The translations under genes and the position numbers were made by a program. This document shows, in pieces, positions 41,957-55,012 of a stretch of DNA of 64,000 bases. The stretch is from positions 1 to 64,000 of the forward strand of contig VRZD01000006.1 of the NCBI GenBank assembly GCA_016743235.1, read 5' to 3'. Position 1 is the stretch's first letter. Each line of letters starts with the position of its first letter. The DNA comes from Pantanalinema sp. GBBB05 (GTDB lineage Bacteria > Cyanobacteriota > Cyanobacteriia > Leptolyngbyales > Leptolyngbyaceae). The notes beneath the pieces are model-generated. The model saw nothing but the letters and a program-made list of their open reading frames with translations, was not told the origin of the DNA and did not search any database.

Positions 41957-43543
41957 ATGGACAGCTTAGTCATTCCTAAAGTCATTTCCCTGATTGCTAA
42001 TGTCACAGGTTTGCAAATTCGAGAGCGAGATCAGGAATTGCTCCAGCGCAAATTGCGCACTCGAATGCGACTGTTGAGTATAACTTCATTAGAAAATTAT
42101 TATCAAATCCTTCAAACCTTGGTGCAATCCCAAGATACTGATTTTTCTCATGATCAACTGATCGCTAGTGAAAAAGAATGGCGAGAGTTAATGTGTTTGC
42201 TCACCACTACCGAAAGTTATTTTTTTCGGGACAAGGGGCAATTCTTGCTGCTAAAAGATCAGATTTTGCCGGAAATTATCCTAAATAAACAACAGCTACT
42301 TCAAGATAGAAATTTAGCTAATTCAAGCTTAGAAAAGCCATCCCTGCGTGTGTGGAGTGCAGGATGCTCAACGGGGGAAGAAGCTTATTCAATTGCAATT
42401 CTACTCCAAGAGCTTATCCCTAATTGGCAAGATTGGAACCTTTTAGTGTTAGGGACAGATATTAACCAGTCTGCGATCGCGGCTGCTAAACATGGACTCT
42501 ACAGCCACTGGTCATTTCGTGATCCAGATCCATCGATTCGGAATCGCTATTTTCAGGAACATCGAGATAGTTGGGAAGTTGTGCCTAAGCTGCGAGAGAT
42601 TGTGACTTTTCAATACGGCAATTTAGTCCAAGATCCAATTCCCAATATTAATCAAAGCCTCCATAATATGGATTTGATTGTCTGTCGAAATGTGTTTATT
42701 TACTTTGATGCGCAAGCGATTGCAACAGTCCTAAAGAAAATCTATAACACGCTCGTGCCCCGGGGTTATTTAGTGACAGGTCATACCGAATTGTATGACC
42801 AGGATCTTGCTCAATTTCAGGTGCGGGTGTTTCCCCAATCTATAGCTTATCAAAAAGCTAAATTGGCTTTGTCTGCTCCACTCCTGAGCAAATCTGCGCC
42901 ATCAACCACCGTTACACCAGTCACTGCATCCCCAGTCCTACTATTAGAACAAGCGGTTGCTGAGCAGGCTACAGCTACTTATCATCATTTACCGACGCCG
43001 GCGATCGAACCTCACGACTTACCAATGGCGCTGCCACCTAGCCAAACCGATTGGCAACCCATTTTTCATCAAGCAGAACAGCTATTTGCGAGTAAAGCTT
43101 ATTTAGCTGCTTTAAAGACAGCAGAACGGGTACTGGTTTCAGAACCACACCATTTTCAGACCCATTACCTGATTGCGCAAGCCTATGCTAATTTAGGCGC
43201 TTACTGCCAGGCGGAACAGGTTTGTCGGCAAGCGATTCAAATTAACCCTTTAGCGATCGATCCCTATTATTTAATGGCGCAAATTGATGAAGAGAAGGGC
43301 GATCTGGAAGGGGCAAAATTTATGCTAAAACGGATTATTTACCTTGATCCATTAGCCGTTGATGCTTATTTGGAATTAGGTAGTTTGTATGAACGGGAAG
43401 GTAATCCCGATCGTGCCCGTAAAGTTTGGGCTTCTGTTTTAGATGTCATCCAACGATTTGATGCAGACGCCTTAATCAATCGCAGTCAGACCCTAACAGC
43501 GAATGAACTGCATCAATATGTTGAACGCTTAATTAAAAAATAG
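41957..43543 (+). CDS. cheR: CheR methyltransferase with C-terminal TPR domain
   Basis: SAM-dependent methylase of chemoreceptor glutamates. The N-terminal helical domain and the Rossmann domain show LTTTESYFFRDKGQF, the SAM motif WSAGCSTGEEAYSIAILL, GTDINQSAIAAAKHGLY and LIVCRNVFIYFD. After a Thr/Pro/Ala-rich linker (about 310-370) come at least three TPR repeats (about 375-500). The product is 528 residues; simple CheR has about 280. CheR-TPR proteins are typical of Wsp-like and other non-flagellar systems, where the TPR regulates or localises the enzyme. It is the first gene of the operon, 160 bases before cheW, and carries no HIP1-rich bias change. Confidence 0.94.
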   Translation: MDSLVIPKVISLIANVTGLQIRERDQELLQRKLRTRMRLLSITSLENYYQILQTLVQSQDTDFSHDQLIASEKEWRELMCLLTTTESYFFRDKGQFLLLKDQILPEIILNKQQLLQDRNLANSSLEKPSLRVWSAGCSTGEEAYSIAILLQELIPNWQDWNLLVLGTDINQSAIAAAKHGLYSHWSFRDPDPSIRNRYFQEHRDSWEVVPKLREIVTFQYGNLVQDPIPNINQSLHNMDLIVCRNVFIYFDAQAIATVLKKIYNTLVPRGYLVTGHTELYDQDLAQFQVRVFPQSIAYQKAKLALSAPLLSKSAPSTTVTPVTASPVLLLEQAVAEQATATYHHLPTPAIEPHDLPMALPPSQTDWQPIFHQAEQLFASKAYLAALKTAERVLVSEPHHFQTHYLIAQAYANLGAYCQAEQVCRQAIQINPLAIDPYYLMAQIDEEKGDLEGAKFMLKRIIYLDPLAVDAYLELGSLYEREGNPDRARKVWASVLDVIQRFDADALINRSQTLTANELHQYVERLIKK

Positions 43544-43705
43544 TCAGAAAATAAATATTGATCAAGATATTGATGGCTTTAGTAGGACTATTAAAACTTT
43601 TGCTACAGCCTATGAATTTTTGTCGCTTTTCGAGCGCCAGTAGGGGGATTGGGAAAACTGTCAAATAGAGACCTTTAGTGGAATCCACTCAAGTTGGTGG
43701 AAACG

Positions 43706-44725
43706 ATGTCACTTCAACCCTATTTGATTTTTCAGGCTAACCACTCACGCTACGGCATTGAAGCGTTAGCAGTGCAAGAAGTATTTTTCCTGCCAGCGTT
43801 AAAAGCGATCGCCGAAGCTCCGGCTGATGTGGTCGGTGTCTTAAACCTACGGGGTGAAATTCTTCCTGTAATCGATTTTAATCGCCGCTTAGGCTATGCG
43901 CCCCAGCCTTATCACCTCAGTGATAGCGTGATTGTGATCAAGTACCAAGACTGCCGTTTAGGCATGATTGTGAATCAGGTTGACGAAGTGCAACTGCTAG
44001 ATATGGCAGAAGGTAACCTAGATTTGACCTACGGTCGTCGGGGTGCTGCCCCAACTCGACGTTTGATCAAACAAGTGATCAGCATGGGTAATGATATTAT
44101 TACGCTGCTAGATATTGAGCAACTGGTTTGCTACTCCGATCAAGCTGCCCTATCAGACAGTTGCCGAGTTGCTGCTATTGCGTCGGTGTTTGCTTCTGAC
44201 GCTACAGCTCACGAACAGCTTGTGTTTCAACAACGAGCCGAAAACTTAATCGGTGGAGCAACGATAGAAGAGGCAACCGATCTGTTACCCCTTGCCGTTG
44301 TTGGTTTACAAGGTGAGTATTTTAGTTTGGAATTGGCGGCGGTACATGAATTTACAGATGTGCAGAAAATCACGCCGATTCCTTGTTGCCCTCCTTACAT
44401 CGTTGGTAATGTCAATTTGAGAGGTGAGATCCTTACCCTGGTTGATATTAGCCACGTGTTGAATTTGCCTACCCATCACATTGGGATCAAACCGAAGGCG
44501 ATCGTTGTGCATTTAGATCATGTGGTAGTTGGCATCACGGTAGATGAGGTTTTGGACGTAGTTTATGTGCATCCTACGGCGATTAAACCTGTACCAGCCG
44601 TATGCTCTACTACCCATGACGAATATTTGCAAGGAATTGTGTCATTTCAAGAGAGAACAATGAGCCTGCTTGATTTGCCCAAAATCCTATTTAAAGGCAA
44701 TTTAATTGTCGATGAAGAAGCTTAA
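43706..44725 (+). CDS. cheW: CheW-type coupling protein with two CheW domains
   Basis: Scaffold linking receptors to CheA. Two complete CheW domains lie in tandem: domain 1 (about 5-145) has VVGVLNLRGEILPVIDFNRR, and domain 2 (about 190-330) has IVGNVNLRGEILTLVDISH. Both retain the NLRGEI strand. The product is 339 residues. The start at ATG 43706 has GGTGG close upstream; the TTG at 43694 is less likely. A double CheW could hold receptor and kinase units together or replace two separate CheW proteins (Wsp systems have two, WspB and WspD). It lies between cheR and two receptor genes on the same strand. Confidence 0.94.
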   Translation: MSLQPYLIFQANHSRYGIEALAVQEVFFLPALKAIAEAPADVVGVLNLRGEILPVIDFNRRLGYAPQPYHLSDSVIVIKYQDCRLGMIVNQVDEVQLLDMAEGNLDLTYGRRGAAPTRRLIKQVISMGNDIITLLDIEQLVCYSDQAALSDSCRVAAIASVFASDATAHEQLVFQQRAENLIGGATIEEATDLLPLAVVGLQGEYFSLELAAVHEFTDVQKITPIPCCPPYIVGNVNLRGEILTLVDISHVLNLPTHHIGIKPKAIVVHLDHVVVGITVDEVLDVVYVHPTAIKPVPAVCSTTHDEYLQGIVSFQERTMSLLDLPKILFKGNLIVDEEA

Positions 44726-44786
44726 GGTTATAACGGCGTAATCTGAGGATTCATTGCCATCGTTAGAAATAAAAGTGAAGAGTCCC

Positions 44787-46241
44787 ATGAAGACAAATTT
44801 CAAACTCAGTCGTGTAGTTCAACTAGGATTTGGTTCTGTATTTGTGGTGATCGTTATAGTTGGCATAGTTTCTAAGTTTACTGGCGATCGCTTAATTGAA
44901 TCAAATCAGTGGGTTGCTCATACTTATAAAGTAGAAGCTGATTTACGTAGTTTGGAAAAAGTATTAATTGATGCAGAAACGGGGCAGCGAGGATATTTAC
45001 TCACTCGTAAAGAAGAGTTTCTCCAGCCCTACTATGAGGCAATTAAGGAGTTTAAAACCACGTTTCAGGCAATCCATCAACTTGTTCAAGATAACCCTGC
45101 TCAGGTAGAGCGTCTGGATCAGTTTCGTACCCAAGCTCAAGCCAAAATAGAAAATATGGAAAAGACGATCGCATTAAGTCGCAATCGTCAGTATTTCCAA
45201 GCAATCGCCCTGGTTTCTTCGGGGCAAGGCAAGCGGATGATGGATGAAATCCGTCAAGATCTGGCAAAAATGATCGAGGTTGAATCCCAACTCTTAGAGG
45301 TGAGAAAAGCTTCGGCAGACCAAGCGGCAAAGGTGTCAGCGATCGTAACGTTAGGTGGAATTGTTGCCACTATTTGCTTTGGGTTGCTAGTACTGTGGTT
45401 TATTGCCCGCGAGATCATTCGACCGATCAATCAAGCCACAAACGCGATCGCTTCATCATCCAACGAAATTGCCGCTACGGTTGAGCAGCAAGAACGCACT
45501 ATTACTCAGCAAGCGGCTTCGGTGAACGAAACAACCACTACGATGGATGAACTGAGTGCTTCTTCCCAACAATCGGCTCAGCAAGCTGAAGCGGCGGCTG
45601 TTAGTGCCCAACAAGTTCTCTCACTCGCTGAAGGTGGTAATCGATCGGTGGCGCAAACCTTACAAAGCATGGCGTTACTCAAGGCAAAAGTGGTAACTGT
45701 CGCTGACCAAATTGTGCGATTAAGTGAACAAACAAACCAGATTGGTAATATTTCTACGCTTGTGAGTGATCTAGCAAACCAAACCAATATGCTGGCACTG
45801 AATGCAGCCGTTGAAGCTGTTCGGGCTGGAGAACATGGTAAAGGATTTTCAGTAGTGGCTAGCGAAATTCGTAAATTGGCCGACCAAAGCAAAAAATCAG
45901 CTCAACAAATTAGTCAGCTTGTCACTGATATTCAAGCGGCAATTAATGCCACTGTTCTGGCAACAGATTCCAGTAATCAAAATGCTGAACAAGGTGAACG
46001 AATTACTCAACAAACGGCTGATGCTTTTGCTAATGTTTCTGAATCCGTTAACAATATTGTCCTAAATGTCCAACAGATTTCCTTGAATTCTAAACAGCAG
46101 GCAATTGCCATTCAGCAGGTTGTGGAAGCGATGACTGTGTTAAATCGGGGTGCTCAAGAAACAGCCAGTGGAATTCGGCAAACGAGAGCGGGAACTCAAC
46201 AGTTGAATGAAGCTGCTTTAAATTTGCAGACTATTGTCTAA
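44787..46241 (+). CDS. Methyl-accepting chemotaxis protein with CHASE3-like sensor
   Basis: Receptor of 484 residues: membrane helix (about 8-28), a periplasmic helical domain with the CHASE3-type pattern [21 protein letters not shown], a second membrane helix (about 188-210), then the signalling domain. The hairpin tip [21 protein letters not shown] is intact. Only about 20 residues ([19 protein letters not shown]) separate the membrane from the signalling helices, so no HAMP domain is present. No C-terminal NWETF-like CheR tether is seen. The start is ambiguous: TTG 44754 has GAGGA 4-5 bases upstream, and ATG 44787 has GAAGAG close by. It is paralogous to the next gene. Confidence 0.92.
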
Positions 46242-46333
46242 ATCGATTGATGGGTTTGTGTTGAATGGTTGTTTAATCGGGGCAAGTTCAGCAATTAACC
46301 CTAGACTTGCTAGAGGTACAGAGGATAAAAATT

Positions 46334-47794
46334 ATGGCAAGCCAAACAAAAGGTTGGAAATTACGGTATTGGATTATTTTGGGATATTGCGTTCCGATCG
46401 TGCTGACTGCCCTATCCTCTCTATTTGTATTTTCCTGTGTACAGACGGTTAGAGAAAAATCAGTAGAGTTGCAGCACTCCAGTGAGATTAATCAAAAAGT
46501 TCATGATTTAGAAACAGATGTACAGGCGCGTTCCAGAGCTACTCGTGGCTATTTACTTCAGAAAGCTACTGCTTCATTGGAAGTGTATAGAGAGGCAAAA
46601 AAACACTTGGCAGAGACATTAAATGCCCTACATGACTTGATTCAGGATCCGCCGCAACAGAAGAATTTACAGCAGCTTACGCCGTTGTTACAAGATTTAG
46701 AGGAGCTTGATCAAGAACTGTTTACTCTGGTTGATCAGGGTAAAACCACCCAGGCGGTTGAGCGCTGGAAAATGATGAATGAGCGGGAGCGGATGGGGGC
46801 TATATCAACCGTATTGGAGACAATGGTTGCCCGTGAAGCTGAAATTGTTCATGCTGGCGAAGTTGCTGGACAACAGGCATTAGATCAACTATTAATTGCA
46901 ATTGTGCTGACAACTATATTGTCAATTGGGATAGCGATCGGCTTGGGAACCTGGATTATACGTAAGATTGTGCAGCAAATTAACCAATCTGCCAGTGTAG
47001 TGGCTAGTTCTACCAATGAAATCGCTGTCAGTGTAGAACAACAGGAGCGGACTGCCAATCAGCAGGCGGTTTCAGTCAGCGAAACAACCACTACGATGGA
47101 TGAATTAGGGGCATCGGCGCGGCAATCGGCTGAACAGGCGGAAGCGGCCGCTGCCGGAGCACGGCAAGCCTTAGCCATAGCCGATTCTGGAAATCAAGCG
47201 GTTGGGCGATCGATTGATGGTATGGCGGCTTTGAAACAGAAAGTAGGAGCGATCGCAGAACAGATTCTGCGCTTAAGTGAACAGACTAGTCAGATCGGTA
47301 ATATTTCAGGGTTAGTGAGTGATTTAGCCAATCAAACTAATATGCTGGCACTGAATGCGGCTGTCGAAGCGGTGCGGGCAGGAGAACATGGCAAAGGGTT
47401 TGCTGTCGTTGCGGGTGAAATTCGCAAGCTAGCAGACCAGAGTAAGAAGTCGGCTGAAAAAATCAATCTTCTCGTGGCGGATATTCAAACGGCAATTAAC
47501 TCTACTGTTATGGTCACCGATGAAGGGACAAAGACAGTTGAAGAAGGGGTGAAAATTGCGCAACAGACGGCTGAATCTTTCTCTGGAGTGACTGATGCGG
47601 TAAACAATGTCGTTCTCAATAGCCAGCAGATTTCGCTGAATGTGAAACAACAGGCGATCGCGATTCAACAGGTGGTAGATGCGATGAATGCTCTGAATGT
47701 TGCGGCTCAAGAAACAGCGAATGGGATGGGGCAAGTGCGCATTGGTACCCAACAGTTAAATGAGACCGCCTCAAACTTAAAGGCGATCGTGTAA
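46334..47794 (+). CDS. Methyl-accepting chemotaxis protein with four-helix sensor
   Basis: Second receptor of 486 residues. It has an N-terminal membrane helix (IILGYCVPIVLTALSSLFVF), a periplasmic helical bundle starting VQTVREKSVELQHS, a second membrane helix (LLIAIVLTTILSIGIAIGLG), then the signalling domain with [21 protein letters not shown]. Like its neighbour it goes from membrane to signalling helices without HAMP. The signalling halves of the two receptors are closely similar, while the sensor halves differ strongly, suggesting duplication with a new input. AGAGGA lies 8 bases before the ATG at 46334. The periplasmic RSRATRGYLLQ motif is CHASE3-like. Confidence 0.92.
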   Translation: MASQTKGWKLRYWIILGYCVPIVLTALSSLFVFSCVQTVREKSVELQHSSEINQKVHDLETDVQARSRATRGYLLQKATASLEVYREAKKHLAETLNALHDLIQDPPQQKNLQQLTPLLQDLEELDQELFTLVDQGKTTQAVERWKMMNERERMGAISTVLETMVAREAEIVHAGEVAGQQALDQLLIAIVLTTILSIGIAIGLGTWIIRKIVQQINQSASVVASSTNEIAVSVEQQERTANQQAVSVSETTTTMDELGASARQSAEQAEAAAAGARQALAIADSGNQAVGRSIDGMAALKQKVGAIAEQILRLSEQTSQIGNISGLVSDLANQTNMLALNAAVEAVRAGEHGKGFAVVAGEIRKLADQSKKSAEKINLLVADIQTAINSTVMVTDEGTKTVEEGVKIAQQTAESFSGVTDAVNNVVLNSQQISLNVKQQAIAIQQVVDAMNALNVAAQETANGMGQVRIGTQQLNETASNLKAIV

Positions 47795-47832
47795 CGGTAC
47801 TGGCTGAACTACAGGCTAAAAGGATGGGAGCG

Positions 47833-50286
47833 ATGAAAATTGATGATGAAGAACTCCGTGAAATCTTCAAAGCCGCGAGTGAAGAGCATCTGCAAAATTT
47901 GGATCAAGGGTTACTCCATCTAGAAAAGTATCCTGACGATCGGGTAACCCTAGAAGCCCTCATGCGGGAAACTCATTCTCTCAAGGGTGACGCCAATATG
48001 CTGGGACTAAAAGATTTGGGTACTCTGGCTCATCAAATGGAGCATATTTTAGGCAGCATTAAGCGAGGAGAACAAGCTTTTTCTGCCCATTTGGGCGATC
48101 GTCTCAGTCACGGTTTAGCTGCCATTCGTAAGTTGATCGACCAAGCCATTACTGGTGAATCAGCCGGTATCAATACATTCTATGTGCTGGCAGAATTAAT
48201 GGGTGCAAGCGGGAATCAGAGTGAGCAGAAGCCATCAGCGGATAGCAGCAATAAAAGTGATGGGGCAAGTCAGGCAGCTGTAGAAGAACAAGTAGAGCTT
48301 GCAGCAACAGTGGAAGAGGTAGTAATTCAGTCGGAAGTAGTCTCCGAGATTGCAGCAGTACCCAGCCCAGAAGTGGGATTAGATCTGGTGACCATTGACA
48401 CTAATGGTCAATCAGGTCATGGGATATTACAGTCATTACCAGAGGATCTCGTCACGCTCAGACCCTCTCTGGAGGTCTCCGACACTACGGCTACTCAATC
48501 ACTGTTAGATCCTGTAATTGCGTCTGTTGCTGCTACTCAGACAACAACTAATTACCACATTGAAACGATTCGAGTGCCGACCCGCAATCTGGATGAGTTA
48601 ATGACTCAAGTCGGAGAACTAACTGTTAATAAGATTCGGATTGCCCATCGCTTAGGAGAAGTGGAAGCGATCGCCAATTTGTGGGAAGAATGTAACCGTG
48701 AACTGCTGCGCCATCAATCCAATAAGATGCATTTAGATCAATGCAGTAGCTTAATTAATCAACTACGACGATCGCTGGCAGAGGATACGGCTCGGTTAGA
48801 GCAGATCAGCACAAGTTTAGAAGAGGAAATTCGCACACTACGATTACTGCCTTTAGCTACGTTGTTTAATCTGTTTCCCCGATTAGTCCGTGATTTGGCG
48901 CGGCAGGAAGGCAAACAGATTGAATTAGTGATGGTCGGCGGAGATACCAAAGCCGATAAACGGATTCTAGAAGAGATGCGCGATCCACTGATGCATATGT
49001 TGCGCAATGCAGTTGATCACGGGATTGAATCTCCGCAGGAACGTCAACGTCAGCAGAAACCCACCACTGGAAAAATCTATTTGCGGGGTTATCAAACTCC
49101 GACGCATGTTGTGATTGAGGTCAGTGACGATGGTCAAGGATTGGATTTAGAAAAAATCAAACAAACTGCTATTAAACGGGGCATTTGCCGCGAGGAAGAA
49201 CTGGCAACTATGTCTGCCAGCCAAATTCAGGCGTTAATTTTTGCTCCGGGGTTTTCAACCCGGACTTTAGTTACCGAAGTCTCGGGGCGAGGAGTTGGTT
49301 TAGATGTGGTGCAGACCCATGTCGATCGCCTGAAGGGTTCCATTCAAGTTGAATCTTTACCGAGTCAGGGTTGCACGATTTGCTTGCAACTTAGTATGAC
49401 CTTGGCGACGGCTCATGTCCTGATTGTGTCTGTTCAAGGTGAATCCTACGCGATCCCGGTGGAAGCGGTTGAAACCGCTTGTTTAGTACAGGCGGATAGC
49501 ATTTTCACGATCGAGGGTCGAGAGGCGATTCTGTATAACGATCAACCGGTTTCAGTGGTACATTTGGCGGAGATTTTAGAGTTACCACCAGAACGAGCCG
49601 CAAGTACAAAGTCCCGCAATGCTCCCACTACACTGGCTTGTTTAATTTTGAAGACCAGTTTTAAGGTGGGTAGCCACTCAGTTCAAGAACAGACTAATGC
49701 TCGATTGGGTGTCTTTGTCGATGCCTTGGTAGATGAACAAGATGTGGTGTTAAAGCCTCAAAGCCAGCTCCTAAAACGAGTGCGCAATATTTCTGGAGCC
49801 ACCATTTTAGGTACAGGGCGGGTTTGTATGGTCTTGAATCCGATCGATTTGTTCAAATCTGTGCGCCGCTCTAAGTATGGACAGGCGACCAAACTCTCAC
49901 CCCAGGTTGCTACGCCTCCTCGAAAACTTGCTGTTTTGTTAGTGGAAGATTCGATTGCTACTCGTACCCAGGAAAAACGGATTTTGGAATCAGCTGGCTA
50001 TGAAGTTGTTACTGCTGTGGATGGTTTAGATGGTTTTAATAAGTTACAAACTCGAGCGTTTGATGCCATCGTATCCGATGTGCAAATGCCAAATCTAAGC
50101 GGTTTAGAGTTAGCCGCTCGAATTCGTCAGCATCGAGAATACAACGAATTGCCAATTATTTTAGTGACAACTCTTGCCAGCGATGAGGATAAGCGTCGGG
50201 GGGCAGAAGCCGGTGCAAATGCTTACATCACAAAGAGTAGTTTTAATCAGGAGGTGTTGCTTGAGACGCTGAAACGGTTGGTATAA
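47833..50286 (+). CDS. cheA: CheA-type histidine kinase with C-terminal receiver domain
   Basis: Hybrid chemosensory kinase of 817 residues. P1/Hpt domain with His48 in RETHSLKGDANML; a long acidic linker (about 125-240) without a clear P2 domain; P3 dimerisation; P4 ATPase with MLRNAVDHGIE, DDGQGL and GRGVGLDVV; P5 CheW-like domain (about 525-680); and a receiver with phospho-Asp749 in IVSDVQMPNLSG. The receiver probably takes the phosphate from His48 as output or sink, since no separate cheY exists here. This CheA-REC layout is that of WspE and FrzE. ATG 47833 is preferred over 47824 for ribosome-site spacing. It follows the second receptor closely. Confidence 0.95.
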   Translation: MKIDDEELREIFKAASEEHLQNLDQGLLHLEKYPDDRVTLEALMRETHSLKGDANMLGLKDLGTLAHQMEHILGSIKRGEQAFSAHLGDRLSHGLAAIRKLIDQAITGESAGINTFYVLAELMGASGNQSEQKPSADSSNKSDGASQAAVEEQVELAATVEEVVIQSEVVSEIAAVPSPEVGLDLVTIDTNGQSGHGILQSLPEDLVTLRPSLEVSDTTATQSLLDPVIASVAATQTTTNYHIETIRVPTRNLDELMTQVGELTVNKIRIAHRLGEVEAIANLWEECNRELLRHQSNKMHLDQCSSLINQLRRSLAEDTARLEQISTSLEEEIRTLRLLPLATLFNLFPRLVRDLARQEGKQIELVMVGGDTKADKRILEEMRDPLMHMLRNAVDHGIESPQERQRQQKPTTGKIYLRGYQTPTHVVIEVSDDGQGLDLEKIKQTAIKRGICREEELATMSASQIQALIFAPGFSTRTLVTEVSGRGVGLDVVQTHVDRLKGSIQVESLPSQGCTICLQLSMTLATAHVLIVSVQGESYAIPVEAVETACLVQADSIFTIEGREAILYNDQPVSVVHLAEILELPPERAASTKSRNAPTTLACLILKTSFKVGSHSVQEQTNARLGVFVDALVDEQDVVLKPQSQLLKRVRNISGATILGTGRVCMVLNPIDLFKSVRRSKYGQATKLSPQVATPPRKLAVLLVEDSIATRTQEKRILESAGYEVVTAVDGLDGFNKLQTRAFDAIVSDVQMPNLSGLELAARIRQHREYNELPIILVTTLASDEDKRRGAEAGANAYITKSSFNQEVLLETLKRLV

Positions 50287-50390
50287 GCGGCGGTTAGGGG
50301 AAGAACATTAGTCGATCGTTGACCTCAGTTCTACTGCAAATTTTTACTTTGCTTTTCTAGTCAATCACAACTAAAAATTAGGAACTTGTT

Positions 50391-51410
50391 ATGGATGTGA
50401 ACGAATTAATCAAGCGCTACCAGGCAGGAGAACGAAATTTTGCTGGAGCTAATTTAGTTGGAGTGAATTTGAGTGGAGTCAATTTGGCGGATATCAATCT
50501 CGCCGAAGCCGCTTTAGGATCAGCCAACTTAAGCCGGGCAAATTTAACTGGTGCAAATCTAGATCATGCCTTTCTTTATAGTGCTGAACTGAGTTATGCC
50601 AAGTTAGGGAATAGCAGTTTGCAAAATGCTGATTTGACCAAAGCTAATCTATCGGGTTGCTTCTTGGTTAATGCTGATCTAACTGCCGCTAAAATTAGTG
50701 GTGCCATCCTTAAGGGGGTGAATTTACGACAGGCAAATCTCAGCCGAGTCAATCTATGTGGTGCTAATTTAAGCGACATTAACTTACGATCGGCAAACCT
50801 ATCGGAAACAAATTTAAGTTGGACGAATTTGACTGGTGCTAGATTGAGCGGTGCTAACTTATCTGGTGCCAAGCTACTTGGGACTAAACTAAACCGTGCC
50901 TTTCTGAATGGCGTTGATCTAAGAGGAATGGATCTCGATGGCGCTGATTTGAGTGAGTCCAAACTGAGTGGGGTTAATTTCAGTCAAGCAAATTTAGCCG
51001 TAGCCAATTTGAGCGAAGCCTATTTAAGAGTGGCTTTACTAACTCAGGCTAATTTACATGCTGCTAATCTGAGTCAAGCTTCGCTTATTCGAGCGGATCT
51101 CACAGGAGCCGACCTCAGCAAAAGCTATTTAGAGCAAGCAGATTTAACTGAAGCAAACCTGCAAGAGGCGAATTTAAATGGCGCCAAGCTATATAACGCC
51201 AGGTTAATTGGCGCCTGCTTGAAAAATGCCTATTTATGGGCAGCCAAACTAGAGCGGAGTAATCTAGAACGAGCCAACTTATCGGGGGCAAAGATGCAAG
51301 GAGCCAACTTATCGGGAGCTAACTTAGAAAATACAGCCTATGATGCGGACACTAAGTTTCCTACTGAATTGAAATCGCTAGCTCCAGAGGTTCATTTATC
51401 CTATAAATAA
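50391..51410 (+). CDS. Pentapeptide-repeat protein in the chemosensory operon
   Basis: The 339 residues are almost entirely A(N/D)LxX pentapeptides from about residue 16 to 315, roughly 60 repeats, predicting a long right-handed quadrilateral beta helix. A short N-terminal helix, MDVNELIKRYQAGERNF, and a C-terminal tail without repeats cap it. There is no signal peptide, so it is cytosolic. AGGA lies 7 bases before the ATG. It sits between cheA and cheB on the same strand with gaps of about 100 bases, so it is likely co-transcribed. Pentapeptide proteins are common in cyanobacteria, but membership in a che operon suggests a scaffold or output partner; this is inference. Confidence 0.93.
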   Translation: MDVNELIKRYQAGERNFAGANLVGVNLSGVNLADINLAEAALGSANLSRANLTGANLDHAFLYSAELSYAKLGNSSLQNADLTKANLSGCFLVNADLTAAKISGAILKGVNLRQANLSRVNLCGANLSDINLRSANLSETNLSWTNLTGARLSGANLSGAKLLGTKLNRAFLNGVDLRGMDLDGADLSESKLSGVNFSQANLAVANLSEAYLRVALLTQANLHAANLSQASLIRADLTGADLSKSYLEQADLTEANLQEANLNGAKLYNARLIGACLKNAYLWAAKLERSNLERANLSGAKMQGANLSGANLENTAYDADTKFPTELKSLAPEVHLSYK

Positions 51411-51513
51411 CTTTATATAAAGAGTATTTTGAGGCATTCCAACTATCCGCATTATCCTCAAAATACTTGATTTCAACTCCGTCGATCGCTAAGACGGAAT
51501 TATAGGTGTTGGC

Positions 51514-52608
51514 ATGCCAAGTTCCCCGATTCGTGTATTACTGGTTGAGGATTCTCCAGTTGCCTTAACTATTCTCAAGCGCATTTTATCTAGTTCGCCG
51601 GAACTGGAAGTCGTGGGAACTGCTCGGAATGGGCTTGAAGCTCTGGAACTAATTCCACAAGTTGATCCGCAAGTAATTTGTACGGATCTGCATATGCCCA
51701 AAATGAACGGGCTAGAACTGACGCAGGCAGTGATGGCCCACTATCCTCGCCCGATTTTGGTGATTAGTGCCTCGGTTCAAGCAGAAGACACTCAAACGGC
51801 ATTTCGCCTATTAGAAGCAGGGGCACTAGATCTATTTCCCAAGCCCTTAGCCGGTCTGCCCTCGGAATACGAGCAGATGAAACAAGATCTGATTAATCGC
51901 ATTCGAGTGTTGGCAGGAGTATCGGTATTTACCCAACACCGATCGCGACCCCTCAGGAAACCTAACGCTTCAGACCACTTGCAGCTATCTGCTGCACAAG
52001 GCGCGGCATCGTCACGTCTACCGATCACGGATATTCATCTACCGAGAGTATTAGTGATTGGCGCGTCTACTGGAGGTCCACAGGCGTTGTACAATCTCCT
52101 GTCACACCTGCCTGCTAATTTTTCCTTACCTATCCTCTGTGTACAGCATATTAGTGAGGGATTTCTCAAGGGATTAGTAGATTGGCTCAATGCTGGCTGT
52201 GCGTTATCCGTAACGATCGCGCAATCAGGCATATTACCGCTGCCTGGCACAGTATACTTTGCTCCGGATCGGGCACATTTGGAAGTGGATGGTCAGGGAC
52301 GCTTAGCCCTGTTAAATACTCTGCCCGTCGATGGTCATTGTCCTTCGGTAACGGTTCTATTCAAATCCGTAGCGAGTTATTACCGACGAGCCACGATCGC
52401 CGTGTTATTAACTGGAATGGGGCGGGATGGAGCAGCAGGACTACAAGCTATTGCGCAGGCAGGTGGGCTAACGATTGCCCAGGACGAAGCGAGTTGTGTT
52501 GTGTTTGGGATGCCTAGAGAAGCGATCGCTTTGGGGGCGGCTCAGTATGTTCTGCCTGCGATTGAAATTGCTCCCTGGTTATTGAAAAAGCTGCAACTGC
52601 CCTCATAG
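51514..52608 (+). CDS. cheB: CheB chemoreceptor methylesterase
   Basis: Removes methyl groups from receptor glutamates (and deamidates Gln), opposing CheR. The receiver domain has phospho-Asp58 in VICTDLHMPKMNG. After a linker, the methylesterase domain shows Ser in VIGASTGGPQAL, His in CVQHISEGF and Asp in TGMGRDGAAGL, the complete triad. The 364 residues match full-length CheB. TAGGTG precedes the ATG. It closes the chemosensory operon, so methylation-dependent adaptation is retained even though a CheY is missing. Its receiver may compete with the CheA receiver for phosphate. Confidence 0.96.
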   Translation: MPSSPIRVLLVEDSPVALTILKRILSSSPELEVVGTARNGLEALELIPQVDPQVICTDLHMPKMNGLELTQAVMAHYPRPILVISASVQAEDTQTAFRLLEAGALDLFPKPLAGLPSEYEQMKQDLINRIRVLAGVSVFTQHRSRPLRKPNASDHLQLSAAQGAASSRLPITDIHLPRVLVIGASTGGPQALYNLLSHLPANFSLPILCVQHISEGFLKGLVDWLNAGCALSVTIAQSGILPLPGTVYFAPDRAHLEVDGQGRLALLNTLPVDGHCPSVTVLFKSVASYYRRATIAVLLTGMGRDGAAGLQAIAQAGGLTIAQDEASCVVFGMPREAIALGAAQYVLPAIEIAPWLLKKLQLPS

Positions 52609-52777
52609 TTTGCTGCGAAGTTGAATTGAGAAAATATCAACTTCTCCCGTAAGAGAGAGTAGTGTTTATGGCGTTTGACAGACGGCAACGCTTTATGATG
52701 TCGCTTAAATATGATGAGAGTAACTATGTGAGCCTAAACATTAGTCGCTGAAGTAGTGAATAAGTGAGGATATGAGT

Positions 52778-53842
52778 ATGACAAATCGAGTTTTTTCAAC
52801 TACCGTTGCACTCGCATTTTTGAGTGCTTTGATTGGCTCACCTGCATTAGCTCAAATAGATACTAGAGTGATTGCACAGCAGAATACTTCTGCCCCACAG
52901 ATTGATAGTTTTACCGCTAATTCTGTCAATCAATTGACCCCTGGCACAGAGTTAACCTTTACGCTCCAGGGTACTCCCAATGCTCGGGCTAGCGTGACGA
53001 TCGGCAATGCGGCTCGCAACCTGCCGATGCGCGAAGTTGAATCCGGAGTGTATGAAGGACGCTATGTGATTCGTACCACTGATTCCTTCACGACCGATAC
53101 TGTAGTACGGGCGAACCTGCAACGGGGTGACCAAGTGACTAGTGCCCGGCTATCGCAACCTTTAGTTGCTGCGACTGGAACGAATACTGTCCAGAATCCC
53201 CAATCTGGCAATTCCTCCACTCAATCCCTAGCGATTGATCGCTTTACGGTGCAACCGGTGCAACAGCTAGAACCTGGTACGGTGTTGAACTTCAACTTAA
53301 CGGGAACTCCCAACGCTAAAGCTACCTACTCGATCGAAGGGATCACCTACAATCAGCCAATGCAAGAAGTGTCTAGTGGCAATTACCAGGGACAGTATGT
53401 CATTCGTCGCCAGGATGATTTTACCAACACTAATAATCGGGTCACCGCTAGCCTGCAATCCGGTAATCAGATTGTGCGGGCACAATTAGATCAAAACTTG
53501 TTTGCGAATAGTGGGACAACGAATACCAGCACAACTCAACTGCCGCTAGAAGTTCTCAGCCCGGAAAATAATAGTCGGGTGCGGGGAACCGTCGAAGTTC
53601 GCGGACGGAGTTTGCCGAATACTACTGTGGCTGTGAATGTGCAAGCATCGACCTCTCTGGCGGGGATTGTGGGACTCGATCGCAACATTCTCAATCGCAC
53701 GGTCTCAACCGATGCTCAGGGGAACTTCAGCTTTAGCTTCCGTCCTACGCTAACAGTTCCAGGAACTCGCTATGAGGTCAGCTTGAGTGCAACGAATGGT
53801 AATCAAAAGAACGAAGAAACCCTGGTACTGATTCAGCAGTAA
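52778..53842 (+). CDS. Secreted protein with two internal repeats and an Ig-like end
   Basis: A Sec signal peptide (FSTTVALAFLSALIGSPALAQ) exports this 354-residue protein. Two homologous modules of about 85 residues follow (roughly 43-128 and 148-238). Each contains I-D-x-F, QLxPGT-x-L-x-F, a GTPNA motif and a YxGxYVIR strand; the repeats look like beta sandwiches. The last 100 residues (LEVLSPENNSRVRGTVEVRG onward) resemble a bacterial Ig-like or carboxypeptidase-regulatory fold. I choose ATG 52778, with GAGGA 7 bases upstream, rather than 52772. It follows cheB by 170 bases and may have its own promoter. Its role is unknown; an adhesive or envelope protein is plausible. Confidence 0.82.
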   Translation: MTNRVFSTTVALAFLSALIGSPALAQIDTRVIAQQNTSAPQIDSFTANSVNQLTPGTELTFTLQGTPNARASVTIGNAARNLPMREVESGVYEGRYVIRTTDSFTTDTVVRANLQRGDQVTSARLSQPLVAATGTNTVQNPQSGNSSTQSLAIDRFTVQPVQQLEPGTVLNFNLTGTPNAKATYSIEGITYNQPMQEVSSGNYQGQYVIRRQDDFTNTNNRVTASLQSGNQIVRAQLDQNLFANSGTTNTSTTQLPLEVLSPENNSRVRGTVEVRGRSLPNTTVAVNVQASTSLAGIVGLDRNILNRTVSTDAQGNFSFSFRPTLTVPGTRYEVSLSATNGNQKNEETLVLIQQ

Positions 53843-53887: not shown

Positions 53888-53918
53888 TGGCTGTAGGAGT
53901 GGTTTATTCCTACAGCCA
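53888..53918. terminator. Terminator between convergent genes
   Basis: TGGCTGTAGGA (53888-53898) pairs perfectly with 53908-53918 around a 9-base loop. It lies between the convergent stops of the secreted protein and the hibernation factor and could serve both. T runs are short on either strand. Confidence 0.65.
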
Positions 53919-53936: not shown

Positions 53937-54560
53937 TTATTCCCAGCCTAAGGGTGGCTCCACGATCGTGTGTTCGGCTTTACCAGTTCGAACTCCAGGT
54001 TTATTCACAATTTGGACACTCGTGGCTTGAGGACCATTTTCACCTTCGGCAACAGCGAACCGCACTCCTGTACCGACTGCCAGACGATCAAAATCTCCGT
54101 GTAATACACTATGGCGATGGAAATAAATCTCTTCTCCTTCTAAGGTTTTGATAAACCCATAGTCGGCTTCAGGATATAACGTAGTGACTAAAGCGGCGGT
54201 TTCCTGGATGCCGCTACCCTTTGATTTTTCACTTTCCCGTTGTTGACGAACTAGCTCTTTAAGTTGTCGTTCAATTTTACTGAAGGCATCCCGGATCACA
54301 GTATCAATATCAGGATATTGGTTACGATCGGCGGGATGACTATCTGCCACTAATTCGTGATTCGGTGGGACGGTCAAATCAATCCGTACTCGAAATGGTG
54401 AGCCTTGTTTGGGACGATCGTGAATCTTTTCTAGGGCAATTTGGCAATGGTTGATGTAATTACATAGCCGCTCTAATCTGGCAACTTTTTCATGAATTAA
54501 GGCTTCGATCGCTAACGTTTTTTCCACATCCCGGCAAGTGATTTCCAGAGCTACTTGCAT
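53937..54560 (-). CDS. Ribosome hibernation factor (HPF/RaiA) fused to a cold-shock-like domain
   Basis: The N-terminal domain (about 1-120) is S30AE-like: MQVALEITCRDVEKTLAIEA, then the conserved RVRIDLTVPPNHELVADS and a basic helix, as in proteins that occupy the ribosomal A/P sites. The C-terminal part (about 140-200) reads YGFIKTLEGEEIYFHRHSVL and then the FDRLAVGTGVRF strand, the pattern of a cold-shock OB fold, not the dimerisation domain of long HPF/LrtA. The product is 207 residues. ATG 54560 has GGAG 8 bases upstream; the frame opens further to 54605 without one. It probably modulates ribosomes in stress and also binds RNA; the combination is the odd part. Confidence 0.88.
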   Translation of the reverse strand: MQVALEITCRDVEKTLAIEALIHEKVARLERLCNYINHCQIALEKIHDRPKQGSPFRVRIDLTVPPNHELVADSHPADRNQYPDIDTVIRDAFSKIERQLKELVRQQRESEKSKGSGIQETAALVTTLYPEADYGFIKTLEGEEIYFHRHSVLHGDFDRLAVGTGVRFAVAEGENGPQATSVQIVNKPGVRTGKAEHTIVEPPLGWE

Positions 54561-55012
54561 CTTGTTATCTCCATATTCTGGTTTTTTGACAGATCTAAAT
54601 AGCAAATGAGATTCAAACTTGATATGAAAAGTTGATTGTAGAAAAATTTTCTAATCTGGTTGAAACTATTACTAACTGCTACCTAGACTAGATAAAATGT
54701 GCCTTCACTTCACCTTGCTCAAAATATTGATTAAAAACCTCAATCTTAGGTTATAAATGCCCATTTACTATTTTTTGGTAGCAGTCTATTATTTATACTC
54801 TGAGTAAACCAGCACTGTTAAAACTTCAGAACTATCAGGTTTGCAAATCAAACAGGAACCGGATCAAACTATATTTTAAGCAGAGGTAATATAACTCAAC
54901 ATTAATTGTTACAGTCTATTAGTCAAAAGATAAACCAACTCACCATTTGGGTATTTAAACAGTATTGGGATTGCCCCAAATTATCGCCGATCGTGCCAAA
55001 AGTCCGCTACTC
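54561..55012. other. Intergenic region between the HPF-like gene and the hybrid kinase
   Basis: About 400 AT-rich bases lie between divergent genes. I see no open frame with a ribosome site, no strong hairpin and no tRNA. It must carry both promoters. Confidence 0.45.

Follow-up and report, generated by a model that had tools for sequence, protein, structure and literature searches.

The window, the whole 64,000-nucleotide stretch of the cyanobacterium Pantanalinema sp. GBBB05 analysed here, contains an intact chemosensory operon that has a hybrid CheA and, in CheR-TPR and CheB, the enzymes of methylation adaptation. A gene for a pentapeptide-repeat protein, PRP-I, lies within it. We infer, with a probability of roughly 0.4, that PRP-I, as a soluble beta-solenoid, serves the adaptation/kinase side of this operon in an accessory role. 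Since the pairing of PRP-I with cheB recurs in other genomes, and a different pentapeptide gene, PRP-II, stands beside cheR in a sister group, PRP-I looks like a sensing accessory and not a stray gene.

Gene content of the operon

The eight ORFs described by the sequence-only reading were recovered at the positions it had given (41957-53842, all on the + strand), and the gene order it had proposed, cheR-TPR, double cheW, two receptors, cheA with a receiver, the pentapeptide gene and cheB, was borne out by ORF positions and Pfam domains (Table 1). The seven che-cluster genes are separated, in order, by gaps of 150, 28, 65, 29, 104 and 103 bp, and a pattern scan returned no + strand terminator-like site between 49292 and 52808. 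The hairpin following the secreted gene is a pattern match only, of a kind found 15 times across the whole stretch against 12.0 expected.

Table 1. Features of the chemosensory operon and its downstream flank, in window coordinates.
Feature	Position	Strand	Description
cheR-TPR	41957..43543	+	methyltransferase acting on receptors, with tetratricopeptide repeats at the C-terminus; Pfam CheR (161 bits) and TPR
double CheW coupling protein	43694..44725	+	343-aa protein with two CheW domains (Pfam, two stretches)
chemoreceptor 1	44754..46241	+	Pfam CHASE3 and MCPsignal
chemoreceptor 2	46307..47794	+	Pfam CHASE3 and MCPsignal
cheA hybrid kinase	47824..50286	+	Pfam Hpt, H-kinase_dim, HATPase, CheW, REC
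PRP-I pentapeptide-repeat protein, 339 aa	50391..51410	+	Pfam Pentapeptide, 288 bits
cheB	51514..52608	+	Pfam REC and CheB (receptor methylesterase)
secreted two-repeat protein	52772..53842	+	no Pfam or NCBIfam family
terminator-like hairpin, 14-bp stem	53888..53918	+	after the last + strand gene; pattern match only

The two CheW matches by HMM fall at 43721-44128 and 44297-44689. Motifs that we take to have their usual catalytic roles were intact in CheA (HSLKG, N-box, DDGQGL, with DVQMP in the REC domain), CheB (CTDLHMP, GASTGG, QHIS, GMGRDG) and CheR (SAM-binding motifs), and cheR-TPR is a core gene in many of the orthologous loci. The closest solved chain to chemoreceptor 2 was 2ch7, against which it aligned nearly without gaps, whereas comparison with the 3zx6 receptor gave 14 extra residues in one arm and 7 in the other. 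A plasmid search for named relatives of CheA returned 373 records, every one below 60% identity. The operon probably does not have a flagellar role.

The secreted two-repeat protein, which the sequence-only reading had included in the operon and listed as a possible output, probably lies outside the chemosensory system. Its gene was found in 0 of the 90 other cheB loci (tblastn, E <= 0.01), it is tied to the stretch by position only, and on this count it was rejected as a conserved part of the system.

Pentapeptide genes across orthologous loci

Orthologous cheB loci were compared across 91 cyanobacterial genomes, including that of the window (G000); two overlapping genome samples (386 and 388 genomes) were searched with cheB and PRP-I. 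Second genome copies (L127, L128, L131, L135), loci with a broken or partial cheB (L080, L083), non-cyanobacterial loci (L133, L134), the other, unannotated contig loci (L136-L205) and paralogous cheB matches at about 40% identity or lower were excluded.

PRP-I was found directly upstream of cheB in four of the 91 loci (G000, G502, G506, G286; gap 34-103 bp), all within one 9-row cheB clade. In the first three, which represent two families, it lies between cheA and cheB, at a protein identity of only 59-62%, and in G286 the operon is split, with PRP-I and cheB at 386-388 kb and the other che genes, without cheB, at about 2.35 Mb, some 1.96 Mb away. Five of the nine clade loci are without PRP-I, among them both of the clade's other members of the window's family (G399, G400), and the genes flanking the window's operon have none in common with those of G502, G506 and G286 except for receiver- and kinase-domain cross-matches. 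Conservation of the gene order in distant genera had been put forward as support for a functional link, and absence of the pentapeptide gene from orthologous operons as its refutation. The slot between cheA and cheB was indeed kept in other genera and in another family (G502, G506), and PRP-I stayed paired with cheB in the split operon, but the gene is missing from most orthologous loci.

The sister cheB clade (support 100/98) comprises 16 rows, and in all 16 of its loci cheR is preceded by PRP-II, which is 34-37% identical to PRP-I. The gap between the two genes, measured from mechanical ORF starts, is 2-3 bp in 10 loci and -44, -1, 21, 45, 71 and 112 bp in the others. Outside the 25-row clade (support 100/97), a pentapeptide gene adjoined a che gene in 0 of 66 loci; cheA could be seen in 60 of these and cheR in 44. 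With PRP-I beside cheB and PRP-II beside cheR, pentapeptide genes appear to have been recruited twice, or swapped, beside two adaptation enzymes.

Among the 66 loci, more distant pentapeptide genes were also seen. In G207, G298, G066, G002 and G135 they lie on the same strand, with the nearest che gene 4.8-8.1 kb away, and in G008 on the opposite strand.

Relatives of PRP-I also occur away from che genes. The operonic proteins were non-monophyletic in a 53-row tree (AU p = 6e-7); a single operonic clade was not rejected in a smaller, 40-row tree (p 0.51), but the 53-row result stands and the single clade was rejected. In the 53-row tree G522 groups with the G506 copy, and G494 and G481 with the G502 copy. 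None of these three genomes has a cheB match at E <= 1e-110, and no che genes were recognised in the 10-20 kb covered around their PRP-I, which implies that PRP-I has, or once had, a function beyond the operon.

These distributions bear on an alternative that we consider on balance unlikely, namely that PRP-I came from the large cyanobacterial pentapeptide family, sits in the operon by chance and has a job unrelated to chemosensing. The 54 first-look pentapeptide candidates in the window's genome, with PRP-I paralogs 56-60% identical elsewhere, the clade loci that are without the gene, and the M1 peptidase gene (G494, G481) or glyoxalase-family gene (G518, G537) adjoining some close relatives of the operonic protein would all be expected of such a passenger, whereas the use of one slot in three genomes and two families at such low identity, the persistence of the pair with cheB in G286 despite the split, and the different pentapeptide gene beside cheR throughout the sister clade argue against it. 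Block transfer, which could move two neighbouring genes together without a functional link, weighs against the reading of PRP-I as an accessory.

The PRP-I protein and its candidate partners

PRP-I has a short helix at its N-terminus and some 60 repeats without interruption, making 15 coils, and was predicted by AlphaFold2 to form a four-sided beta-solenoid (pLDDT 92.7). The best Foldseek match by E-value was 3du1, with MfpA and Qnr also among the fold matches. Outward residues, compared over 13 relatives, were unevenly conserved, with face means of 0.71 against 0.52, 0.54 and 0.61 (within-position permutation p = 0.0006); the face test was performed twice, as a repeat register shifted by one gave no face effect (p 0.30). 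The conserved face, whose residues include Y63, K84, N121/C123, W144 and R113/R133, is common to operonic and non-operonic members, only five positions looking operon-specific, so the binding partner may be other than CheB.

Our preferred reading of PRP-I as an accessory would run as follows. One operon lineage would have added a gene whose product is a rigid, soluble beta-solenoid with four sides. PRP-I would most likely dock on the adaptation side or act on it allosterically, and is not an output. PRP-I may bind CheB through its one conserved face, possibly bridging CheB to CheA or to the receptor array, and would thereby set where or how strongly CheB acts; the output of the operon may be motility by type IV pili or behaviour on surfaces.

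A partner on the kinase side seems improbable. Under this proposal, made by analogy with MfpA and GyrB, the PRP-I subfamily would bind and tune the GHKL-type ATPase domain of histidine kinases, here that of CheA. According to a review, MfpA binds the GyrB ATPase domain and mimics DNA in acting on gyrase (PMC10886550); PRP-I has a net charge of 0, a DNA-mimic reading of it was thus unsupported, and its match to MfpA and Qnr is generic for pentapeptide proteins. Eight members of the 13-row PRP-I clade lie beside che genes or a histidine kinase, compared with 1 of the 40 rows outside the clade (with about 1.5 kb of flank seen, less at contig ends), and three members (G000_C15, G506_C19, G399_C213) come immediately after a gene for a PAS/GAF-HisKA kinase. 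All seven of the clade members first known adjoined che genes or a histidine kinase, but only one of six from a further sample (G549) lay beside a kinase; kinase linkage was therefore dropped as a general rule of the subfamily and retained only as a rival, which also has to contend with the G286 copy standing beside cheB and away from cheA.

No stand-alone CheY adjoins the operon within the window, as the sequence-only reading had held, but the genome does carry an unlinked ortholog of the cheY found with sister operons (G000:C81:158261-158605, 61% identity, the next by score being 38%), a candidate CheY for this operon. The view that PRP-I stands in place of the output gene and reads the phosphorylated CheA receiver instead of CheY is very improbable: it fits the lack of a neighbouring CheY and the position of PRP-I next to the CheA receiver in three genomes, but replacement of CheY was rejected because G502 and G506 carry PRP-I together with a convergent cheY and the ortholog is present elsewhere in the window's genome, receivers in CheA are described as commonly serving as a phosphate sink (PMC10782961), and the G286 split together with PRP-II beside cheR favours the adaptation enzymes over the CheA receiver as partner.

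Cyanobacterial pentapeptide proteins are abundant but, to our knowledge, few have a known partner. For PRP-I the genomic context gives a short list (CheB, CheR, CheA), with two natural cases, PRP-I and PRP-II, and sister operons without the gene as controls. Literature searches for pentapeptide repeats in combination with chemotaxis or chemosensory terms gave no title or abstract start describing the arrangement, and one that combined them with histidine kinase gave none among the matches listed. More tentatively than for PRP-I itself, we suggest that pentapeptide solenoids may be a new chemosensory accessory class that one operon lineage took up at least twice, beside its two adaptation enzymes (PRP-I/CheB, PRP-II/CheR). 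In the sensory arrays of cyanobacteria they might serve as rigid adaptors, or might regulate receptor methylation or the ATPase domain of CheA allosterically. Were such a role shown, a solenoid scaffold would join the chemosensory parts list and one pentapeptide family would be explained.

Comparison with known systems

The likeness to ACF-type and Wsp systems seen by the sequence-only reading holds for the parts list: CheR with TPR, CheA with a C-terminal receiver, CheB, membrane receptors and two CheW domains, as in Wsp. It does not extend to a WspR-type diguanylate cyclase, since no GGDEF domain was detected by Pfam among the eight genes and GGDEF turned up in only 3 of the 91 loci in a motif scan. 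The operon also differs in its CHASE3 receptors and its pentapeptide gene, and a CheY ortholog lies separately elsewhere in the genome.

The Tax/Pix phototaxis operons (PixGHIJL; PMC5812497) have CheW, MCP and CheA in common with the operon here, and near some operons related to it lies a receiver protein with DUF4388, which we take to be PATAN. The operon here differs in its methylation enzymes, in CHASE3 receptors in place of a photosensor domain, and in having neither a PATAN-receiver gene nor a CheY gene in the cluster.

Among pentapeptide proteins, the gyrase-acting Qnr and MfpA share the fold class of PRP-I, which scores far below their NCBIfam cut-offs (91.9 and 83.9 bits against 240 and 360), is neutral in net charge and lies in another gene context. 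PRP-I scored 199.2 bits against the Alr5209 family pentapeptide protein model NF052603 (curated cut-off 125 bits), a score summed over five repeat stretches of a 113-position model, so that the name is one by repeats and not by function. With HetL and other cyanobacterial pentapeptide proteins (3du1, 2j8k) it shares the four-sided solenoid, but it falls below the HetL cut-off (NF047416, 219.3 against 260 bits), is longer at 339 aa, and stands in an operon with cheA and cheB.

Loci anchored on CheB

CheB was used to anchor orthologous loci. It matched in 91/386 genomes of a phylum sample (E <= 1e-30), with an identity step between a 53–68% group and paralogs at ~40% or lower; besides the window, this group comprised 39 genomes with the match in one piece and two (G229, G116) with it in two pieces, and G044 held a CheB fragment of 56% identity. 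Matches were also obtained in 72/388 genomes of a class sample overlapping the phylum sample (E <= 1e-110), 5/42 of the window's order (E <= 1e-80) and 8/36 of the family of G502 (E <= 1e-110). Annotation covered 91 distinct cyanobacterial loci, including the window's, a different set from the 91 matching genomes and equal in number by coincidence. The usual core, often in this order, is cheR, double cheW, one to three receptors, cheA with a receiver (cheA-REC), and cheB, and the same core is present on a Desulfobulbaceae contig (L133). At L075, L076, L077 and L242-L244 (genomes of 2.4–3.7 Mb), an extra 137-aa CheB-receiver-like protein precedes cheB.

In the window, ORF reading and Pfam recovered all eight ORFs of the sequence-only reading, with the positions and identities it had given. 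CheA has Hpt, dimerisation, HATPase, CheW and receiver domains, and the catalytic motifs of CheB and CheR are kept, so the core system looks functional from its sequence. Gaps within the che cluster are 28–150 bp. A pattern scan, weak evidence at 15 terminator-like sites found versus 12.0 expected, gave no + strand site at 49292-52808 and one with a 14-bp stem 3' of the secreted-protein gene. The Pantanalinema genome (G000, 7.18 Mb) has CheW domains on two other contigs, C62 and C78.

Pentapeptide genes beside cheB and cheR

The window's gene order recurs in a few other cyanobacteria: the slot between cheA and cheB that holds the PRP-I gene (PENTAPEPTIDE) in the window does so in G502 and G506 as well (62% and 59–60% protein identity to the window's), but PRP-I is directly upstream of cheB in only 4/91 loci. 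In the fourth, G286, PRP-I (60–61% identity) and cheB are paired at 386–388 kb, and cheR-cheW-MCP-MCP-cheA lies at ~2.35 Mb, without cheB. That cheA is followed on its own strand, after 67 bp, by a gene for an MscS-type channel, then by one for an amine oxidase and by a second pentapeptide gene, which is shorter. Sixteen loci have another kind of pentapeptide protein, PRP-II, encoded ahead of cheR (visible only in extended upstream DNA for G578 and G570); it is 279 aa long in 11 of these and 34–37% identical to PRP-I, with a differing N-terminus. With mechanical starts, 10 loci have a gap of 2 or 3 bp between its gene and cheR, and the others have gaps of -44, -1, 21, 45, 71 and 112 bp.

In the cheB tree (IQ-TREE, 91 rows), all four PRP-I loci fall within one 9-row clade (support 100/95), sister to the 16-row PRP-II clade (100/98) in a joint 25-row clade (100/97). 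A pentapeptide gene adjoins che genes in 20/25 rows inside the joint clade and 0/66 outside (Fisher p 8e-16, overstated because the rows are related), and this adjacency counts as a trait of the clade that arose once or twice rather than 20 times. Early ends of some contigs and the splitting of some operons limited the view of the 66 outside loci: cheA could be seen in 60, cheR in 44 and the two together in 43. In five of the 66 a pentapeptide gene lies on the same strand at 4.8–8.1 kb from the nearest che gene, and in G008 one lies on the opposite strand. Five joint-clade rows have no adjoining pentapeptide gene (G399, G400, G419, G421, G530), and the cheA-cheB slot of G400 is filled by a sensor histidine kinase gene. 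Kinases that share 56–60% identity with this one over the aligned part adjoin pentapeptide genes in G549 (L296) and G400 (L255).

In a 53-row PRP-I tree, the four operonic copies lie inside a 13-row clade (100/95), and their monophyly was rejected. Three other members come from genomes (G522, G494, G481) in which cheB had no match at E <= 1e-110, and the DNA read on either side of their PRP-I showed no recognisable che gene. Either the operon was lost with PRP-I kept, or PRP-I was recruited repeatedly into the same slot; we judge loss likelier, because three chance hits on one slot are improbable.

Coordinates of pentapeptide genes and associated features
Feature	Genome	Location	Strand	Remark
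PRP-I gene	G000	window 50391..51410	+	339 aa
S30AE/cold-shock protein gene	G000	window 53937-54605	-	Ribosomal_S30AE and CSD Pfam matches; convergent with secreted-protein gene
Second pentapeptide gene	G286	L270:5697-6329	-	210 aa; 42% identity to part of PRP-I
Slot histidine kinase gene	G400	L121:1614-3716	-	
Close PRP-I relative directly 3' of PAS/GAF-HisKA kinase gene		L272:7265-10765	-	
Close PRP-I relative directly 3' of PAS/GAF-HisKA kinase gene		L274:4790-8470	-	
Close PRP-I relative directly 3' of PAS/GAF-HisKA kinase gene	G000	L248:9514-12589	-	convergent receiver gene just after the relative
Candidate CheY gene	G000	C81:158261-158605		61% identity to G502 receiver protein

Predicted structure of PRP-I

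The AlphaFold2 model of PRP-I (7-row alignment) is a regular four-sided solenoid of ~15 coils with a mean pLDDT of 92.7; residues 3-11 form a helix at the N-terminus, and confidence is low in the tail from 328 on. Fold matches include HetL (3du1), designed solenoids, NP275/276, QnrB1 and MfpA, at low full-length TM-scores (0.10–0.40 in query), so the predicted structure is matched to a fold class. With the repeat register corrected (the first register showed no effect), outward-residue conservation across 13 relatives was 0.71 on one face versus 0.52, 0.54 and 0.61 on the others (p 0.0006). Conserved positions on this face include Y63, T83/K84, S103/G104, N121/C123, W144, D183 and W283, and a second conserved patch comprises N111/R113, N131/R133, S153 and N173. 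Conservation of this kind would be expected of a binding face; non-operonic members have it too, so it gives no specific pointer to CheB.

Role of PRP-I

In chemosensory systems, as described in PMC5812497 and PMC10782961, CheB and CheY are phosphorylated by CheA, and receptors are reset by CheR and CheB. The pentapeptide genes point to this adaptation side, because PRP-I adjoins cheB, PRP-II adjoins cheR, and the PRP-I/cheB pair is kept in the split operon of G286. PRP-I would dock on CheB or regulate it allosterically, a reading given a probability of about 0.4. That PRP-I is a passenger gene is a serious alternative, if a rather unlikely one. A weakened alternative, that PRP-I binds or acts on the GHKL-ATPase of the kinase, has a precedent in MfpA-GyrB (PMC10886550) and draws on kinase-adjacent relatives, the 13-row clade members G000_C15, G506_C19, G399_C213 and G549 each adjoining a histidine kinase gene. 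A link to che genes or a kinase was found in 8/13 rows inside that clade versus 1/40 outside; the prediction failed, however, among clade members added by a later sample (only 1/6 linked), and no kinase was found in the flank seen for G522, G494, G481, G518 and G537.

The proposal that PRP-I stands in CheY's place as an output scaffold reading the CheA receiver fails, as a 131–135-aa receiver gene, convergent with cheB, coexists with PRP-I in G502 and G506, and G000 has a candidate CheY. When the G502 receiver protein was compared with six genomes, its ortholog was found on contig C81 of G000 (next G000 match by score, 38%), which gives the window's system a candidate CheY by sequence similarity. 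The ortholog is away from cheB in G400, G286 and G421, and beside it in G399. Beside the C81 gene (L307) are an alpha/beta-hydrolase-like and a GAF-like ORF (by eye), and ~4 kb away lies an ORF of 565 aa that has a 35% pentapeptide match. ORFs <190 aa matching the CheA receiver, not all the same gene, occur somewhere in 33/91 loci (one CheA fragment left out), and longer ORFs with a receiver match within the fetched stretch of 32/91. DUF4388, which we take to be PATAN, was present in 4/7 longer ORFs checked, three of the four below Pfam's cut-off.

No description of a pentapeptide accessory of a chemosensory operon was found in the literature searched, most subscription journals being outside its reach. 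The core operon is of a known kind.
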